A DNA stretch of 64,000 nt from Myxococcaceae bacterium (GTDB lineage Bacteria > Myxococcota > Myxococcia > Myxococcales > Myxococcaceae). This document shows, piece by piece, positions 25,727 to 40,929 of the stretch. A program made the position numbers and the translations under genes. The stretch covers positions 62,001-126,000 of the forward strand of contig JAIBBQ010000002.1 in assembly GCA_019694595.1 (NCBI GenBank), given 5' to 3'. How positions within the stretch are numbered: the first letter of the stretch is position 1; the number at the start of each line of letters is the position of its first letter. The notes beneath the pieces are model-generated. The model was given only the letters and a program-made list of their open reading frames with translations. It was not told where the DNA came from and searched no databases.

Positions 25727-26332
25727 TCAGAACGTGTACTTGACCCGCGGGAAGAACTGCAGCGAGTGCACGTTGGCGCCGATGATGAGGCGGTAGACCA
25801 CGTCGACGCCGATGGTGAAGTGGTCCATGTTGGTCGCGTACTCGAGGCCGATGGCGCCGCCGAGATCGATGCCGCCCTTCACGTTGGCCACCGGCGCCGG
25901 GTCGAGCAGCGTGTAGCCCCCCATCACCCGGCCGCCCACGTAGAGGCGCTCGATGATGCGCCGCATGTAGCCGACCGACGCGTTGATGAAGGTCGCGGTG
26001 AAGCTGTCGGCCTGGGGGCACGCGCCCTGCGAGCCGCCGCCGCCGACGCGGCCCGCGTAGCAGTTGCCCGCGCTGGCGCCGATGCCCACGTGGAGCCCGA
26101 CGGGAATGTAGTGCTTGTCCTCGTCGCCCAGGTTGAACTGGTACCCGACGCCGAGCTGCAGGTACGCCTGCAAGTTGGAGTACGCGTCGTCACCGCCCAG
26201 CGTCAGAAACCCGCCGATGTCCGTCTCGGTGAAGAAGCCGGTGCGCACCTTGAGCGGCACGCCTTCCTGAGGCGTCGCCGCCTGGGCCGTCATCGAAACC
26301 GCCAGCACCACCAGAGCAAGAAGCTTCCGCAC
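25727..26332 (-). CDS. cglE: CglE-like outer-membrane beta-barrel (gliding motility)
   Basis: About 201 residues from GTG 26332, chosen because it gives a clean signal peptide (R-K-L-L-A-L core, cleavage after Q-A). The mature part has alternating beta strands with aromatic girdles (A-Y-L-Q-L-G-V-G-Y, R-L-Y-V-G-G-R-V-M-G-G-Y) and ends in F-P-R-V-K-Y-T-F, a C-terminal Phe signature for outer-membrane insertion. The opening of the mature chain fits what I remember of CglE. It is the last gene of the gliding run, 144 bp after gltG. Some call the same position gltH, and the naming is from memory. Confidence 0.68.
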   Translation of the reverse strand: MRKLLALVVLAVSMTAQAATPQEGVPLKVRTGFFTETDIGGFLTLGGDDAYSNLQAYLQLGVGYQFNLGDEDKHYIPVGLHVGIGASAGNCYAGRVGGGGSQGACPQADSFTATFINASVGYMRRIIERLYVGGRVMGGYTLLDPAPVANVKGGIDLGGAIGLEYATNMDHFTIGVDVVYRLIIGANVHSLQFFPRVKYTF

Positions 26333-26476
26333 GATCGTTTCGCTGCCTTTCAGGGGCCCTTGAAGCGCGCGGCACCCTACATCTGCGACCCCCACCGTCC
26401 AAGCCCCAAAACGACGAACGGCGGCCCCTCCGACCTCGAGGGTGCCGCCGTCGGACCGGCCTGCAGAGTGGCCGGG

Positions 26477-28427: not shown

Positions 28428-28688
28428 CTACAGGTTGTCGACCGACTTCTGGAGCTCGGGCACGAAGTTGTCGCGCACCTTGATCAGGCTCTTGAAGGAC
28501 GTCTTCTTCTTCGAGATCGAATACGTGCCTTCAGGCTTGGTGAGCTCGCCTTCGACCGCGACGTCGGTGAAGTCGATCACCGTCTTCTTGCGGACGACCG
28601 TCTTGTCCGCTTCCTGGATCACGTTCACCTTGCCCTGAGCGAAGGCCGAAGCAGCGATCATCGACACCACGAATGCGTACCGAACCAT
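28428..28688 (-). CDS. cglF: CglF/GltF-like small periplasmic gliding protein
   Basis: An 86-residue exported protein. Signal peptide residues 1-18 (hydrophobic, ending A-F-A-Q) are followed by a short mature chain with V-I-D-F-T-D-V-A-V-E-G-E-L and P-E-L-Q-K-S-V-D-N-L at the C-terminus. The start is fixed by a strong GAGGAGG site 5-6 nt before the ATG. It lies between gltE and gltG, the position expected for the small gliding gene, and the sequence matches my memory of CglF. The exact equivalence of the names gltF and cglF is not certain. Confidence 0.72.
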   Translation of the reverse strand: MVRYAFVVSMIAASAFAQGKVNVIQEADKTVVRKKTVIDFTDVAVEGELTKPEGTYSISKKKTSFKSLIKVRDNFVPELQKSVDNL

Positions 28689-28763
28689 GCGTACCTCCTC
28701 GGTAATGCACCGACACCGCCCATGGGGCGGGGGTTCCCAAAAGTCGGCGGACACTAGGCTTCT

Positions 28764-28786
28764 TGCGGCGCGGTTGTCACGCCGCA
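28764..28786 (-). promoter_or_regulatory. Intercistronic hairpin between gltE and cglF
   Basis: A 7-bp perfect stem (TGCGGCG/CGCCGCA) with a 9-nt loop lies 4 bp after the gltE stop. A second 6-bp hairpin (CCGCCC/GGGCGG, 28716-28730) follows before the cglF ribosome site. There is no U-tract. It may mark RNA processing or differential stability within the operon. Confidence 0.35.
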
Positions 28787-28790
28787 CCCG

Positions 28791-30119
28791 CTACTTGGGG
28801 GCGGGCTTGGCACCCTCGGGTGCCTTCTCAGGGGCCGCCGGGGTTTCCGGAGCCGGCGCCGGGGCCGCCCCTTCGGACTTGGCCGCGTCGTCGGTGACCT
28901 TGTCGAGCAGCGACGCGCCGCCGGTGCCGGTCGCCTTGGGCTTGTCCTTGGCCGCCGCGCCCGCCGCCGGAGCCTGGGCCCCCGACTTCTGCAGGGTCTC
29001 GATGCTCTTGAGCTTGGCGTCGATGAGCTGCTGATCGGCCGCGGTGGTGCTCGCCAGCGCCTTGCACTTCTGGAGGTACGGCACCGCCTTGTCGAACCCG
29101 GTCTTGTCGGCGGCGTACGCCCACCCCGCCCCGCACACCGCGTCGGACTGGTCGGCCTTCAGCGCCAGCACCTTCTCGAACGCCTGCCCCGCCGCCAGGC
29201 CCTTCTTGGGGTCGCGGCCCTTCTGCCCGTCGAGCGCCCACGCGTAGGCGAGGAAGCCTTCGTAGCTGGTGGGGTCGAGTTCGGTCGCCTTGGCGAACGA
29301 CTTCTCGGCGTTGTCGTAGTCGCGGTAGCTGAGCGCCATCGCGCCCAGGTTGAACAGACCCGGCGCGAAGTCGGGCTTGAGCGACACCGCCTTCTGGAAG
29401 TACCCCAGCGCCCCGCGCCGGTCGTCGTTGCGCAGGAAGATCATGCCCAGGTTGTTCCACACGCCCGGGTCCTTCTCGTCGAGCTTCTTGGCGTTGGCGC
29501 TGATGAACTCCGCCAGGCGGTAGTTGCCCTGGTCGAAGTAGACGAGCGCGAGGTTCTTGTACGCGTCGGGGTTGTCCTTGGTGCGCGAGAGCACCTTGCG
29601 CGCCGCGCCCTCGGCCTGGTCGAACTTCTTCGCCAGCCGGTACGCCACGGTGAGGTTGTTGAGCAGGGGCACGTTGAACTCCTGCCCCGGCTCCTTGAGC
29701 GCGCTCTCGTACAGCGAGATCGCCTGTTCGAACTTGTCCTGCAGGCGGTAGACCTTGCCCAGGTTGAGCAGCGTCGGCTCGTGCATCGGGTCCGCCTTGT
29801 GGGCGGCCTCGTAGTGGGTCTGCGCCTCGGTGAGCTTGCCTTCGCGCTCGCTGATCACCCCGAGGTTGAACTCCGCCGACACCAGGCCCGGCTTCTTCTC
29901 GAGCAGCTTGGTGAAGGCGGCGCGCGCCTCGCCCAGCTGCCCCTTGTCGAAGGCCGCCACGCCCTGGTCGAACAGCTCCTGGGGCGAGCGTTCCTTGGTG
30001 CTCTGCACCGGCGTGGTGGTGACCGGCTTCTCGTCGGGCTTCACCTGCTGCTCGGTCGGCGTGCAGGCAGCCGCCCCCGCGAGGGCGGCGACGGCGGCGA
30101 AACGCAGGGTCTGCTTCAT
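28791..30119 (-). CDS. gltE: GltE (AglT)-like TPR lipoprotein
   Basis: A 442-residue lipoprotein; lipobox A-A-A-C, Cys19. ATG 30119 is preferred over 30134 because GAGGA lies about 10 nt before it. Residues about 45-350 contain at least seven TPR units, for example F-D-Q-G-V-A-A-F-D-K-G-Q-L-G-E-A and W-N-N-L-G-M-I-F-L-R. The C-terminus is Pro/Ala-rich. In the gliding machine this class is a periplasmic TPR lipoprotein that acts with GltD. It starts about 20 bp after the gltD stop. Confidence 0.85.
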   Translation of the reverse strand: MKQTLRFAAVAALAGAAACTPTEQQVKPDEKPVTTTPVQSTKERSPQELFDQGVAAFDKGQLGEARAAFTKLLEKKPGLVSAEFNLGVISEREGKLTEAQTHYEAAHKADPMHEPTLLNLGKVYRLQDKFEQAISLYESALKEPGQEFNVPLLNNLTVAYRLAKKFDQAEGAARKVLSRTKDNPDAYKNLALVYFDQGNYRLAEFISANAKKLDEKDPGVWNNLGMIFLRNDDRRGALGYFQKAVSLKPDFAPGLFNLGAMALSYRDYDNAEKSFAKATELDPTSYEGFLAYAWALDGQKGRDPKKGLAAGQAFEKVLALKADQSDAVCGAGWAYAADKTGFDKAVPYLQKCKALASTTAADQQLIDAKLKSIETLQKSGAQAPAAGAAAKDKPKATGTGGASLLDKVTDDAAKSEGAAPAPAPETPAAPEKAPEGAKPAPK

Positions 30120-33796: not shown

Positions 33797-33828
33797 TTTG
33801 ACCCGGGCAACGCCCGGGGGGGTCAAAA
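33797..33828. promoter_or_regulatory. Strong long hairpin upstream of gltD
   Basis: A GC-rich inverted repeat with outer arms TTTGACC/GGTCAAA and an inner CGGGC/GCCCG stem lies between the 671-residue gene and gltD. It lacks a downstream U-tract on either strand. On the minus strand it would sit about 60 nt before the gltD ATG and might act as an RNA-stability or processing element. Confidence 0.45.
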
Positions 33829-33870
33829 GCGCGCGGACCCTACACCCCACGTGCGCGGAAGAAAACCGCC

Positions 33871-35886
33871 TCAGTCGTGAGATGGTTCCCCGAACAACGC
33901 CCGCATGCCCTGCTCTGCGCCGCGGACGATTTCGGGGGCAAAGAGGTACGAGATCGCCAGGTTCCGGGCATTCCGGGCAGCTTCCCGGTGCACCGTGCGC
34001 CGCAGCGTGTCCGAGACCGAGCCGTCGCCGAAGCGCTCGCGCATCGCCGCCCGCTGCGCTTCGACCTGCGCCTTCGCCTGCTCGATGCCGGCCAGGGTGC
34101 GCTCCCGCGAGGCCGGCGCTTCACAGGCCTTGCGCTTGACGGAAGTCAACGTTTCCAGGGGTTTGCCGTGAACCCAGCGGGCCACCGCCTCGGCCGAGAC
34201 CGCCGGGTCGGCGCCCGCCACCTTCGCGCGCAGGGCTTCCAGGTCCCCCAGCGCCCGCTCGGAGGCCGAGAAGAACGACTTCACCGTGTCGAGCGTGTCG
34301 CGGATGGTGTCGTTGACCCGGGTCCAGTCGGGGGCCTCCAGGCCCTTGAGCATCGCCTCGCCCTTGCCCACCAGCGCCTTGCTCCCGCTCGTCACCGTGG
34401 CCGGGGCGTTCCCCAGCGACTGGGCGTCGAGGAGCATGGTCGCGTTGGAGACCAGGTCGTCCCACAGCAGGTTCGCCCGGGAGCCCCACTTGCTGCCCGC
34501 GGCCTCGCGGTGGAGCACCCAGGCGCCGTCGACCGGGCGGTTGCCGTAGAGCAAGCCGAGCTCGATGTCCTGGTTGCGCGTGGCCGAGCCCCACACCGCG
34601 CCCCGGGGCCCGAAGGTGGTGGCCGACCGGGTGATGGAGTCGGGCCCGGAGCCGGTCATCGTCCCCGCGGTGGGGCCGTCGAGCCAGTCGTCTCCCGGCT
34701 GCCCCAGGTAGGCCTTCTCGGTCGGGCGCGGGAACTCGAGCACGATGGAGGCGATGTCGAGGTCGATGCCCCCGGTGAAGTTCGCCGTCGCCAGGGCGTC
34801 GGCGTCGCTGCGCCCTTCGAAGGCCCCGATGGTGTCGACGTCGAGCTTCACGTTGGGACCAGGCACCTTGGGCTTCTCGCCTTCCAGCCGGGCCCGGCGC
34901 ACGCTGGCGTTCTTGTCCAGCGCCAGGAGCATCTGGTCGTGGTCGAGCTGGAAGAACCGCCCCTTCCCTTCGCTCTCGGGAAGCTGGCGGGACAGCGCCA
35001 GGCCCGCGAGCATCGAGTTGTTGCGGTTGCGGCCCACGCCGTCGCCGGCCCCGGAGCCGAACAGGGCGCTGAGCGCCGCGCGCACGTCGTCCTGGGAGAG
35101 CCCGTGCCCCGCCACCTTGGGCGACGCGAGCGCCGCCTGCTCGATCGCCTGGTGAAACGCCTGCTCCCGCTCGGCGCCCAGGTAGAGAAACCGCGCGCCC
35201 GACTTCGAGGCCTGGGTGAGCTGCTCGGTGAGCGCGCGCACCTGCGCGTCCATCGGCGGGGGCGAGTCGTCGGTCAGCACCACCGTCATGCCGCGGGTGG
35301 CGTGGGCCGCCGACGCGTCCTTCGCGAAGCCGAAGGTCTGGAAGTTCTTCTCGTGCGAGGCGAGCACTTCCTTCAGGTTCGTCAGATCGGTCGGCGTGCG
35401 GCAGTACGCGATGATCGACATCGTGCGCAGGCTGGTCGGCCCCACCTCGCGGGCCGGCACCGGGCGCACCGCCTCGCGGCTCGCCGGCACCGACCAGTCG
35501 TCCTTCGCGTGGCGACGAGCCGGCGCCTCGAGCGATGGCTCCGGCCGCTGGTTGGTCAGCGTGAGCCGGGTCTCTCCACCGTCCACGAAGAGCCGCTGCC
35601 CGGTGACCGCCCCCAGCCGGTCGGCGAGCACCTGCAGTGACAGCGCCAGCGACTCCTTCGCCGTGGCCCCGAGCCCCGCCGGGAAGGCGACGCTCGCCTC
35701 GGCGCGCGCGCCCAGCAAGACGCGCCGGACCGCGCCGTCGTCCAGCACGGAGGCGAGCGCGGGGGTGACCTTGAAGTCGCTCTGGGTCAGCAGCAGGTCG
35801 AGCTGGACCCGGCGCGACTCGTAGCGCGCCTCCGCATCGGCGGGGCGCAGCGGCGGCGGTGCCTTGGGAACGACGCGGGCGGACAT
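33871..35886 (-). CDS. Unknown 671-residue protein inside the gliding cluster
   Basis: I do not recognise this protein. ATG 35886 has GGAG about 7 nt upstream. There is no signal peptide and no membrane segment, so it is probably cytoplasmic. The first 170 residues look like one domain followed by a Pro/Arg-rich break. The middle contains F-F-Q-L-D-H-D-Q-M-L-L-A-L-D and L-D-V-D-T-I-G-A-F-E-G-R. A Gly/Ser/Trp-rich stretch (W-G-S-A-T-R-N, W-G-S-R-A-N-L-L-W-D-D-L) leads to a helical C-terminus with coiled-coil character. It sits between gltC and gltD, 87 and 132 bp away, on the same strand. Context suggests a gliding-related or inserted gene. Confidence 0.72.
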   Translation of the reverse strand: MSARVVPKAPPPLRPADAEARYESRRVQLDLLLTQSDFKVTPALASVLDDGAVRRVLLGARAEASVAFPAGLGATAKESLALSLQVLADRLGAVTGQRLFVDGGETRLTLTNQRPEPSLEAPARRHAKDDWSVPASREAVRPVPAREVGPTSLRTMSIIAYCRTPTDLTNLKEVLASHEKNFQTFGFAKDASAAHATRGMTVVLTDDSPPPMDAQVRALTEQLTQASKSGARFLYLGAEREQAFHQAIEQAALASPKVAGHGLSQDDVRAALSALFGSGAGDGVGRNRNNSMLAGLALSRQLPESEGKGRFFQLDHDQMLLALDKNASVRRARLEGEKPKVPGPNVKLDVDTIGAFEGRSDADALATANFTGGIDLDIASIVLEFPRPTEKAYLGQPGDDWLDGPTAGTMTGSGPDSITRSATTFGPRGAVWGSATRNQDIELGLLYGNRPVDGAWVLHREAAGSKWGSRANLLWDDLVSNATMLLDAQSLGNAPATVTSGSKALVGKGEAMLKGLEAPDWTRVNDTIRDTLDTVKSFFSASERALGDLEALRAKVAGADPAVSAEAVARWVHGKPLETLTSVKRKACEAPASRERTLAGIEQAKAQVEAQRAAMRERFGDGSVSDTLRRTVHREAARNARNLAISYLFAPEIVRGAEQGMRALFGEPSHD

Positions 35887-35924
35887 CGACGCTCTCCGGG
35901 CCAACGGGCGGACTGCCGCCCCCT

Positions 35925-37511: not shown

Positions 37512-38543
37512 CTAGAAGATGAACGAGGCGCCGAGATACAGGCCCAGGTTGTTGAGCACGTCGGAGGTCGGCTTCTCGACCAGCTTCGAAGCCAGGTTCG
37601 CGTCAGCGTCGCCCGAGAACTGGCCGGCGTTGCAGCTGCCGCCCACGTTCGCCTTGCTGTTGAGCGCCAGCGCCTTGAGCTCGGTGAGGTCGCAGCCGTT
37701 CACCGTGTCCACGCGCGCGGTGTAGATGAGGTCGCGGAGCTCCGCGCGGATCGCGAAGCGCTTGCCGAGCTGCAGCCGGAAGCCGCCGCCCACCTCGAAC
37801 TGGAACCGCGAGCCGGTGTCGCCGTAGGTCGCCGGGCCCGCCGCGTTGTCCGGCTTCAGCTGGTGCCGGGTGCCGCCGATGCCCGCGCCCGCGTTCAGCA
37901 CGAGCGAGAACTGCGCCAGCGTCGACTCGTAGAGCGCGAACTTGCCGTAGATCGGCGTCACCTCGATGCCGCCCACCACGCCCCAGACGTTGAGCAGCGA
38001 GCTCGCCGGCTCGGCTTCCTCGTTCACCTTGGTGATCAGCTCGCCGTTGAAGCCCGACTCGGTGTTGACCCAGTTGTACTGGCCCTGCACCTGGAAGCCG
38101 AAGTTCTCGTTCAGGTGGTACACCAGGCCGATCGCCGTGCCGTAGTGCTGGGTGAACTTGCCGTTGGTCTGCAGCACCACCGGGAACAAGATCGCCTCGA
38201 AGCGGTGGTAGTCGCTGAACTTCTTCTGCTCGACGATGTGCACCGCGACGTTCGGGTTGTAGAGCGGCGCGCCCGACACCAGCTTCTGCTGGTCGGCGTT
38301 CGCCGGCACCGGCGTCACCGTGACCGCGCCGAGCGCGGCCGGGGCTTCGGCCTTCTTCTCTTCCGCCTTGGGCGCGGTCTTCGCGCCGGGGGCCGGGTCC
38401 TCTTCGTCGTCGTCGGCCGGCTTCGACGCCGCCGGCGCGGGGGCCGCACCAGCGGTCAGCACCGTCTCCAGCACCGGCGCCGACGGCGCCGCGAGCGCGG
38501 AGGCCGACACCAGCACGGCCAGGCTTGCAATCAGGGAGCGCAT
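37512..38543 (-). CDS. gltA: GltA-like outer-membrane beta-barrel
   Basis: A 343-residue exported protein. Signal peptide residues 1-19 are followed by an Ala/Pro/Lys/Glu-rich linker to about 75, which could cross the periplasm. The rest is a beta-barrel of the myxobacterial outer-membrane barrel family (for example F-G-F-Q-V-Q-G-Q-Y-N-W-V, R-F-Q-F-E-V-G-G-G-F-R-L-Q-L) and ends L-Y-L-G-A-S-F-I-F with terminal Phe. Two cysteines near 270-310 may form a loop disulfide. It lies 13 bp after gltB. Confidence 0.8.
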   Translation of the reverse strand: MRSLIASLAVLVSASALAAPSAPVLETVLTAGAAPAPAASKPADDDEEDPAPGAKTAPKAEEKKAEAPAALGAVTVTPVPANADQQKLVSGAPLYNPNVAVHIVEQKKFSDYHRFEAILFPVVLQTNGKFTQHYGTAIGLVYHLNENFGFQVQGQYNWVNTESGFNGELITKVNEEAEPASSLLNVWGVVGGIEVTPIYGKFALYESTLAQFSLVLNAGAGIGGTRHQLKPDNAAGPATYGDTGSRFQFEVGGGFRLQLGKRFAIRAELRDLIYTARVDTVNGCDLTELKALALNSKANVGGSCNAGQFSGDADANLASKLVEKPTSDVLNNLGLYLGASFIF

Positions 38544-38556
38544 TGGGTTCGTGCCT

Positions 38557-39330
38557 CTAGAAGATGAACTGGTAGCCGACGTTGAGCATCACCAGGTTGG
38601 TGATGCCGGGGTTGGTCGCCGGAGTGCCGCCCGGGTTGGCGGTGCCCGCGGTGACCGTCTTCTTGTCCAGGTTCTCGAGGTAGGAATCGAGATAGCTGTA
38701 GTCGCGCATCTCGAGGCCGATGGCGTGCCGGCGGGTGATGAAGAACCGGGTGCCCAGCGCCACGCTCACCAGCGGGCCGACCTTGCTCTCGTTCAGGTAG
38801 GTGCCGCAGTCGGCGCCGGCCTTCTGGGTGCAGATGATGACCGAGTCGCGCTTGAAGAGCCCGACCCCGCCGCCCGCCCAGAGATAGAGCTGGAAGTGCA
38901 CCGGCAGCTCCGCCATCAGGCCGAGCTTTCCGTAGATCGGCTGCCAGCGCGCGCCGACCACGCCGTTGACCGTCATCTCCCACAGGTCCTTGAGGTCGGC
39001 CGTCTTGGTCGGGCCCACCGCCGGGAACTCCTTGGCGATGCGGTCCGCCAGGCCGGTGTGCTTGGAGTACGCGTAGCCCGCGCGCAGCTCGATGGCGAAG
39101 GTCTCCGCCACGTTCCACGCCGCGGTCACGTTGAAGTTGTAGTGATCGGTCAGACGCGTCAGCAGCGCCAGTCCGATCGACCCACCCACCTCGAAGCGAT
39201 CGTCGACCTCGAAGAGGCGGTTGCGCACCGCCACCTTCTCGACCAGCTCACCTTCGGGCTCGTCCTCCGCCAGCGCCGGCAGCGCGACCAGCGCCAGGAG
39301 TGCCAACCACCGAAACCGTGTCGTCGTCAT
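38557..39330 (-). CDS. gltB: GltB-like outer-membrane beta-barrel
   Basis: A 257-residue exported protein; signal residues 1-21 end L-P-A-L-A. It has the V-R-N-R-L-F-E-V-D-D-R-F-E-V start typical of the same barrel family as GltA, paired strands with G-Y-A-Y-S-K-H, Y-L-W-A-G-G-G-V-G-L, and ends V-G-Y-Q-F-I-F. GltA and GltB form an outer-membrane platform at focal adhesions (known in M. xanthus). It starts 15 bp after the VWA lipoprotein gene. Confidence 0.82.
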   Translation of the reverse strand: MTTTRFRWLALLALVALPALAEDEPEGELVEKVAVRNRLFEVDDRFEVGGSIGLALLTRLTDHYNFNVTAAWNVAETFAIELRAGYAYSKHTGLADRIAKEFPAVGPTKTADLKDLWEMTVNGVVGARWQPIYGKLGLMAELPVHFQLYLWAGGGVGLFKRDSVIICTQKAGADCGTYLNESKVGPLVSVALGTRFFITRRHAIGLEMRDYSYLDSYLENLDKKTVTAGTANPGGTPATNPGITNLVMLNVGYQFIF

Positions 39331-39345
39331 CCCCTCACCCAGGTG

Positions 39346-40866
39346 TCATGGACAGCTGTTCGAAAAATTGGCCTGCACGTCGTAACAAACCTCGACCGAG
39401 GCGAGGCTCTCGGGCACCGCGTTGCCGTCGAAGCGCACGATGTTGCGCAGCGCCGACCCGTCGCACTTCACGTACTGCGCCCCGTTGGGCGCGCTGGCCA
39501 GCGCCACGTCGAGCGCCTTCACGCAGCGCCCCGCCCGGCACTGATCGCCCGGCGCGCACTGGGCCGCCGTCATGCACGCGCAGACGTTGTTCACGCAGGT
39601 CTGGGACATCGAGCACTGGGTGTCGACCTGGCAGGGCCGCGGTGCCTCCGACACGTAGAGCTCGACCCCGGTGGCCTTGCCGCCCATGGCCCGCAGCTCC
39701 GGGCCGCGCGACAGGCGGAACTCGCGGCGCAGGCCGGAGGCCGCGTAGCCCAGGGAGGCGAGCGCGTTCTGGAAGTCGCTGTCGCAGATGTTCACCGCGA
39801 CGCCGCCGGTCTCCGCCGCCACCTTGAGGTACCGGCCGCCGAAGTACGCCACCTCGAAGCCGCCGTCGTTGGGGCCCAGGTGCGGGCAGTCGGCGCCGTT
39901 GAGCGACTTGCAGCACCCGACGTGCTGCGTGGGCTCGCCGAACTGGCTGGGCACACCCGCGTCCGCGCCGTCGTCCTTGGCGACGATCGCCGCCAGCGCC
40001 ACCAGGTCGCCGTTGCCGTAGCCCTTGTAGGTCTCGAAGAAGCGCGTGAAGTAGGCCGTCGAGCCGAAGGCGTTGGGGCCCCCGAGCGTCTGGTCGGTCG
40101 CGCAGCGGCAGCCCGGGTCGGCGGTGCACGTCGGCTGCGACACCAGCGGGTTGCACGACGAGTCGTCCTCGTCGCTCACCACCACCACGTACAGCGCAGC
40201 GTCGTTGCGAATGAAGCGCTCGCTGCTCGCGGTGCTCACGTTCGCCGGGTTGGTGAGCGCCAGGTACGCCGCGAGGAGACCGCGTTCCTGGGCGCTGCCC
40301 TGGGTGCCGACCAGCGCCATCTGGTTGAACGCCAGCACCGCCGCGGTCGTGCCACCGTCGACACTGGGCGCGGTGTTGCAGAGCGAGCCGCCCGTCGGCT
40401 GCGGAGTGCAGGCGATGTAGTCGCCGGAGTACGGCGCCAGGCTCCAGGTGCGCAGCGCCCCGCGCGTCTTGGGGTCGTCGGTGTCGGTGGTGACCACGCC
40501 GATGTGGAAGTCGATGGGAATGGTGGCGTTCACCAGCTGGGAGATGAAGCCGTTGAAGTTCGCCGCCAGGCGGGCCTGCTTGGGCGCCATCGAGCCCGAG
40601 GAGTCGACCACCCAGAGGATGTCGACCTTGCGCACCGACAGCTGCTGGAACAGGTCGCACTGGCGCGGGCTCGCGACCGAGAAGTTGCCGTTGTCCATGC
40701 GCAGGTCGGTGTCGACCGACGGCGCCTTGGAGTCGACCGCCGGCTGCCCGGGGACGATGGCGAACGGCTCGATGATCTTCTGGGTGCGGGTGCGATCGGG
40801 GCACGCCGTCAGCGCCGCCAGCAGCGGCACCAGAACCCAAGGCATGGCGCGGAATTGGAGCGTCAT
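39346..40866 (-). CDS. cglB: CglB-like von Willebrand A-domain lipoprotein (candidate gliding adhesin)
   Basis: A 506-residue lipoprotein; lipobox L-T-A-C, Cys22. A VWA domain starts near 80 with D-I-L-W-V-V-D-S-S-G-S-M, giving a complete MIDAS D88-x-S-x-S motif. The domain continues past residue 380 with several cysteines (Y-I-A-C, S-S-C-N-P, G-C-R-C, V-G-C-C). A cysteine-rich module follows (C-S-M-S-Q-T-C-V-N-N-V-C-A-C). CglB is the outer-membrane adhesin of myxobacterial focal adhesions, so this gene next to gltB/gltA/gltC fits. Here it is longer than the roughly 416 residues I recall for M. xanthus CglB. Orthology to another gliding lipoprotein (GltK/AgmO position) cannot be excluded. Confidence 0.66.
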   Translation of the reverse strand: MTLQFRAMPWVLVPLLAALTACPDRTRTQKIIEPFAIVPGQPAVDSKAPSVDTDLRMDNGNFSVASPRQCDLFQQLSVRKVDILWVVDSSGSMAPKQARLAANFNGFISQLVNATIPIDFHIGVVTTDTDDPKTRGALRTWSLAPYSGDYIACTPQPTGGSLCNTAPSVDGGTTAAVLAFNQMALVGTQGSAQERGLLAAYLALTNPANVSTASSERFIRNDAALYVVVVSDEDDSSCNPLVSQPTCTADPGCRCATDQTLGGPNAFGSTAYFTRFFETYKGYGNGDLVALAAIVAKDDGADAGVPSQFGEPTQHVGCCKSLNGADCPHLGPNDGGFEVAYFGGRYLKVAAETGGVAVNICDSDFQNALASLGYAASGLRREFRLSRGPELRAMGGKATGVELYVSEAPRPCQVDTQCSMSQTCVNNVCACMTAAQCAPGDQCRAGRCVKALDVALASAPNGAQYVKCDGSALRNIVRFDGNAVPESLASVEVCYDVQANFSNSCP

Positions 40867-40929
40867 CGGGCTTTCCAAAAGCCGCCGTGGCGTAGCACAG
40901 CCGTTCGGGCCAGCGGCAAGCGATTTGCG

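Follow-up and report, generated by a model that had tools for sequence, protein, structure and literature searches.

The window, by which is meant the whole 64,000-nucleotide stretch of DNA analysed, raises the question of why a large protein of no recognised family, here called X, is located within a one-strand run of genes for a known machine, and whether it belongs to that machine or entered the run later. An earlier note, made from the sequence alone, had placed X between gltC and gltD in an otherwise all-gliding run, and had proposed either a new gliding component or regulator, or a later insertion. The frame and its start region are as follows.

33871..35886, minus strand: X (P0001), an orphan protein of 671 amino acids, with an intact frame from ATG to stop, in which no signal peptide or membrane span was seen
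35892..35897, minus strand: possible ribosome-binding site GGAGAG, seen by eye 5 nt ahead of the ATG of X

The reading frame of X is real, and its coordinates, its length and the strand common to its neighbours were all confirmed exactly as described earlier. The GC content at codon positions 1, 2 and 3 is 0.71, 0.52 and 0.94, respectively, and this GC3 skew (94%) matches that of the neighbouring genes. In the analysis of codon usage, the frame of X displayed a score of 0.43, the highest of the six frames (the other five range from -0.29 to -2.49) and lower than that of the neighbouring genes (0.92-1.16). The intact frame, the host-like codon positions and the possible ribosome site together suggest that X is translated. 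A spurious frame, one of the many that high-GC DNA leaves open, or an error of assembly in a genome divided into 394 contigs, is scarcely credible given the coding signature described above and the position of X within a contig of 144.6 kb, where it is flanked on either side by nfs genes. No hydrophobic segment was found in X, for which the Kyte-Doolittle mean over 19 residues peaks at 1.25, in agreement with the lack of a signal reported before; since no stretch resembles a membrane span, the description of X as a large and probably cytoplasmic protein was correct. Promoter and terminator scans around X provided nothing useful.

Judged by sequence comparison, the gene cluster that holds X is the nfs spore-coat locus, paralogous to glt. 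The genes around X are listed below.

38557..39330, minus strand: nfsA orthologue, matching TIGR04565 above its cut-off
37512..38543, minus strand: nfsB orthologue, outer-membrane beta-barrel family TIGR04565
35991..37505, minus strand: nfsC orthologue of 504 aa (gltC in the earlier note), 55% to M. xanthus locus L104, 217-219 bits against the GltC model NF033756
30139..33738, minus strand: nfsD orthologue (gltD in the earlier note), a TPR protein of ~1199 aa from the likely ATG
28791..30119, minus strand: nfsE orthologue, resembling a TPR lipoprotein, with its start picked by eye; 109 bits against the GltE model NF033758, below the cut-off of 225
28428..28787, minus strand, start provisional: nfsF orthologue, 63% in M. 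xanthus L104
26477..28354, minus strand: nfsG orthologue with FHA and TonB_C domains
25727..26395, minus strand, start provisional: likely nfsH, by position, length and a beta-barrel match

The order on one strand is A, B, C, X, D, E, F, the FHA/TonB protein G and the beta-barrel H, and the nfsA-to-H order is thereby present in the window, A to G by match and H by position only. M. xanthus nfsA-H (MXAN_3371-3378), with published lengths of 294, 442, 512, 1202, 499, 94, 682, and 200 residues (PMC2875238), likewise has A to F in sequence on a single strand, followed by an FHA/TonB protein and a beta-barrel. Identities of A, B, C, D, E, and F between the window and the M. xanthus locus L104 are 45, 45, 55, 53, 48, and 63%, respectively. 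The M. xanthus glt proteins are paralogous to those of the window, and naming the genes as glt was a fair guess. However, the GltC-like and GltE-like scores in the window lie below the curated glt cut-offs, and the real GltC is elsewhere in the genome: with the NCBIfam GltC model (NF033756, cut-off 450) the window gene reaches 217-219 bits, whereas the true GltC, encoded on contig C215 of this genome, reaches 958 bits. The next-best gltD-like copy of this genome, which is the best candidate for gltD, is found at 31% on contig C51. Moreover, gltC and gltD of M. xanthus are located in separate clusters according to PMC3169522, whereas nfsC and nfsD are in one cluster in the window. The relatives are split likewise, with an nfsC-like copy apart from the true GltC. 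For example, in the 9.0-Mb single contig of G022 the nfsC-like copy (57% to the window) is at 3.957 Mb and the true GltC at 2.952 Mb; here, the nfsD-like match directly after the nfsC-like copy has 54% identity, and other gltD-like copies have at most 33%. The flanks of X are therefore gltC-like and gltD-like and on its strand, as first described, but they are nfsC and nfsD, and the supposed gliding run is an nfs paralogue cluster. With this correction the cluster concerns the spore coat and not gliding. In the published accounts, nfs is required for viable spores in M. xanthus (PMC2875238), and Nfs moves the coat polymer, the coat being a glycan, round the spore by means of the gliding motor (PMC3858216).

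The nfsC-nfsD junction was followed through other genomes by a scan of the collection with an nfsC alignment, which provided 55 loci (L091 and L132 come from one genome). Forty-nine of these, with nfsC at 50% identity or more, were counted as orthologues, and L124 and L127-L131, below 50%, were left out. It can be observed that nfsD follows nfsC directly, without X, in 45 of the 49; among the remaining four, the contig edge intervenes in L078, L091, and L114, and L093 is rearranged. In the genome of the latter, G023 (L093; L065 10-3174), nfsD is replaced by a frame convergent to nfsC, of 1054 residues or more. X was found at none of the 45 junctions that could be judged, nor anywhere in the 55 loci. 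In the 45 loci the first nfsD match begins 0-623 nt beyond the nfsC stop; in the window, 2253 nt lie between that stop and the nfsD ATG. In the M. xanthus locus L104, 214 nt separate the nfsC-like stop from the first in-frame nfsD-like ATG; the published gap is 214 bp, described in PMC2875238 as being without a convincing frame, whereas the longer gap of the window holds X. Absent from the other nfs clusters examined, X is not a core nfs component. It is true that nfs and glt are paralogous and that the Agl motor is common to both (PMC3858216), which would allow X to be a new component of the gliding machine. That possibility is nevertheless very improbable, considering that the cluster is nfs, that other parts of the genome carry the true gltC and the best candidate for gltD, and that X is lacking at every orthologous junction judged.

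A tree of nfsC was built from 25 of the 55 loci and the window, with rows L123 and L124 on very long branches. In it the window forms a pair with L078 (support 88/83); by path length, L079 and L080 come next. In these three lineages nearest the window, a small exported gene of ~106-109 residues is located between nfsC and nfsD (L079 2198-2524; L080 7452-7760; L078 3862-4115, at the contig end). The small exported genes are mutually homologous, with E values of 6e-7 and 3e-12 from the G009 copy, and the protein displays only a weak match to PilP (E 0.15). In the genome of the window no convincing match to this gene was found (best E 0.027), and X is unrelated to it. On the simplest reading, X may have taken over the place of the small exported gene or filled its site. 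The junction seems prone to gene exchange, being a spot that holds different genes in different lineages.

Relatives of X were searched for widely. None was found in 60 relatives, in 145 genomes of the order or in 195 of the phylum, where the best foreign E value was 0.009 and the matches were short unrelated stretches. In the collection of genome contigs there were 176 pattern matches and in viral contigs 32, none of them a relative; since both scans were seeded by exact short peptides, distant relatives could be missed there. Plasmids provided only two records (E 0.9), phages none, and the PDB none by sequence. Within its own genome, X retrieved only itself at E values up to 10. Pfam, NCBIfam, PHROGs, and PADLOC contained no family matched convincingly by X, which bears out the earlier statement that its family is not a recognised one. 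The check proposed at that time, whether homologues keep the gltC-X-gltD order, found no homologue in the 60, 145 and 195 genomes; for the same reason, neither homologues scattered away from glt genes nor a clear match to an unrelated family appeared. Because X has no homologue, conservation provides no argument for its function. In short, nfs is a known spore-coat operon, and X is an orphan insertion seen in this genome only, among the genomes searched. Comparison of the junctions thus indicates that X is an insertion specific to this lineage within the spore-coat operon, and not a conserved gliding component. Of the two options in the earlier note, later insertion is the one that agrees with these results, while that of a new gliding component or regulator found no support in an nfs cluster with no homologues keeping the order.

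The position of the insertion could be defined more closely through a conserved block ahead of nfsD.

33811-33870: leader of nfsD between X and nfsD, a T-rich tract with the GTGTAGGGTCCGCGCG block; core TGTAGGGTCCGCGC at 33831..33844, minus strand

The core, TGTAGG[G/T]T..CGCGC after a T-rich tract, is located shortly before nfsD in 13 of the 45 loci, with a single copy in each of these and no other occurrence across the 55 loci. In the window it also occurs once, 26 nt beyond the stop of X. Since the block lies between X and nfsD, the point of insertion is downstream of the nfsC stop and ahead of the nfsD leader, which was left whole. The block may serve nfsD as a promoter or as some other signal of the leader. 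In M. xanthus, as reported in PMC2875238, the tested nfs gaps were all spanned by RT-PCR products, nfsC-nfsD excepted, and a promoter fusion of nfsD displayed no specific signal; on these results the authors favour one transcription unit (PMC2875238).

The reading preferred here, with a probability of roughly 0.45, is that X is a lineage-specific entrant to the nfs operon with a proposed cytoplasmic accessory role in building the spore coat. The sequences show that X entered the operon after nfsC and immediately ahead of the conserved leader of nfsD, where the nearest relatives have the small exported gene. From this position, and by analogy with the single unit published for M. xanthus, X is probably transcribed with nfs during sporulation, and would most likely serve as a cytoplasmic accessory of coat building in this lineage. 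More speculatively, if its middle part is a sugar-transferring enzyme, its substrate in the cytoplasm would be the coat polymer or a precursor of it, and X would stand apart from the moving Nfs complex. It should be noted that a passenger, that is, a gene of foreign or recent origin which settled in a tolerated gap and is unconnected to coat building, is quite plausible at somewhat less than even odds. X is a singleton in all searches, and the junction holds other content that is not conserved, namely the small exported gene in three relatives and the convergent frame in G023/L093. On the other hand, X follows the nfsC stop in the orientation of the operon, the nfsD leader beyond it is intact, the 671-codon frame of X is likewise intact, and no long repeat was seen to flank it, the repeats there being short matches of low identity.

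Leads to a possible activity for X as an accessory of coat building were sought in its sequence and predicted structure. Motifs selected by eye are GRNRNN (285-290), QLDHD (313-317), NFTGGIDLD (369-377), NQDIELG (438-444), and H459. Their arrangement was read against DUF6271 (PF19787), a family which we take to resemble glycosyltransferases, the reading starting from this family and from the D.D motif. By eye, the order of short motifs in DUF6271 (TNR, LDS, G..N, D.D, FxG....D, and D then H) resembles that in X at ~157-460, but there is no significant profile match and the forced alignment has 21% identity over 265 columns. The profile was prepared with the S. chartreusis row excluded and two rows trimmed at their N-termini. 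In the global profile alignment this region of X outscored most controls, but 3 of the 100 shuffles and 6 of the 200 real proteins scored as high or higher. Local alignment stayed at chance level: 60 of 200 shuffles reached the score, and in another local run it was reached by 22 of 100 shuffles and exceeded by the reversed sequence. Pfam scans of the middle region of X yielded no sugar-transferase family, and a DNA pattern for one motif had no match in 142 genomes. Furthermore, a profile of five DUF6271 proteins retrieved no credible solved relative, so the glycosyltransferase nature of the family is itself presumed. DUF6271 is present in 2 of 193 genomes of the phylum, that of the window not among them, and is not named in the literature searched.

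The structure prediction advised in the earlier note gave no usable fold over the middle region. With AlphaFold run without relatives, the mean pLDDT was 38.2 for full-length X, where only 14-113 and parts of 530-620 were fair, and 33.5 for the fragment 150-500 modelled alone. Residues 14-113 form a small and fairly confident alpha/beta unit in the predicted model, and the C-terminal part, 500 to 665, is predicted as long helices. Foldseek with the model of X gave a best E value of 0.18, to designed proteins. The VIA structure comparison reached a best Z of 8.3, from long-helix matches in the C-terminus, which are common for long helices. A short-chain dehydrogenase was also considered for X and rejected, since only ~50 residues (54-108) resemble the C-terminal tail of that family (E 0.026, Pfam E 0.086).

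Two more specific roles may be weighed against these data. The middle part of X (~155-490), which may resemble a sugar-transferring enzyme in layout, offers a weak lead. It is improbable that X is a new and highly divergent enzyme of this kind, captured by the nfs operon and supplying glycosyl transferase activity. The authors of the 2013 Agl-Nfs study suggested, in their account, that such an activity might be linked to Nfs (PMC3858216). If it were so, one operon of this lineage would encode both the transport of the coat polymer and its synthesis or tailoring. Alternatively, X could be a scaffold or regulator on the cytoplasmic side of the Nfs-Agl machine, contacting for instance the FHA part of NfsG via its C-terminal helices. 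The helices predicted there are consistent with such a role, but the structure matches in that region are of the long-helix type only and none is specific, and no other nfs cluster examined has an equivalent; this role is accordingly rated as unlikely. Under the preferred reading of X as a coat-building accessory, if X works with Nfs, it would represent a lineage-specific extension of the machine that winds a sugar polymer round the spore, and X would be a named candidate for tailoring of the coat polymer.

Other features were observed around nfs clusters. Upstream of nfsA in the window, at 39346-40878 on the minus strand, there is a gene for a lipoprotein-like product, which matches VWA marginally. 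This gene was matched next to nfs in 16 of the 55 loci, all of them metagenome-assembled relatives; no match was found in the flanks fetched for the Myxococcus or Corallococcus loci. Finally, the nfs cluster of locus L106, from a record titled Comamonas sp. KCTC 72670, is of the typical myxobacterial kind, and the record is therefore probably mislabelled.
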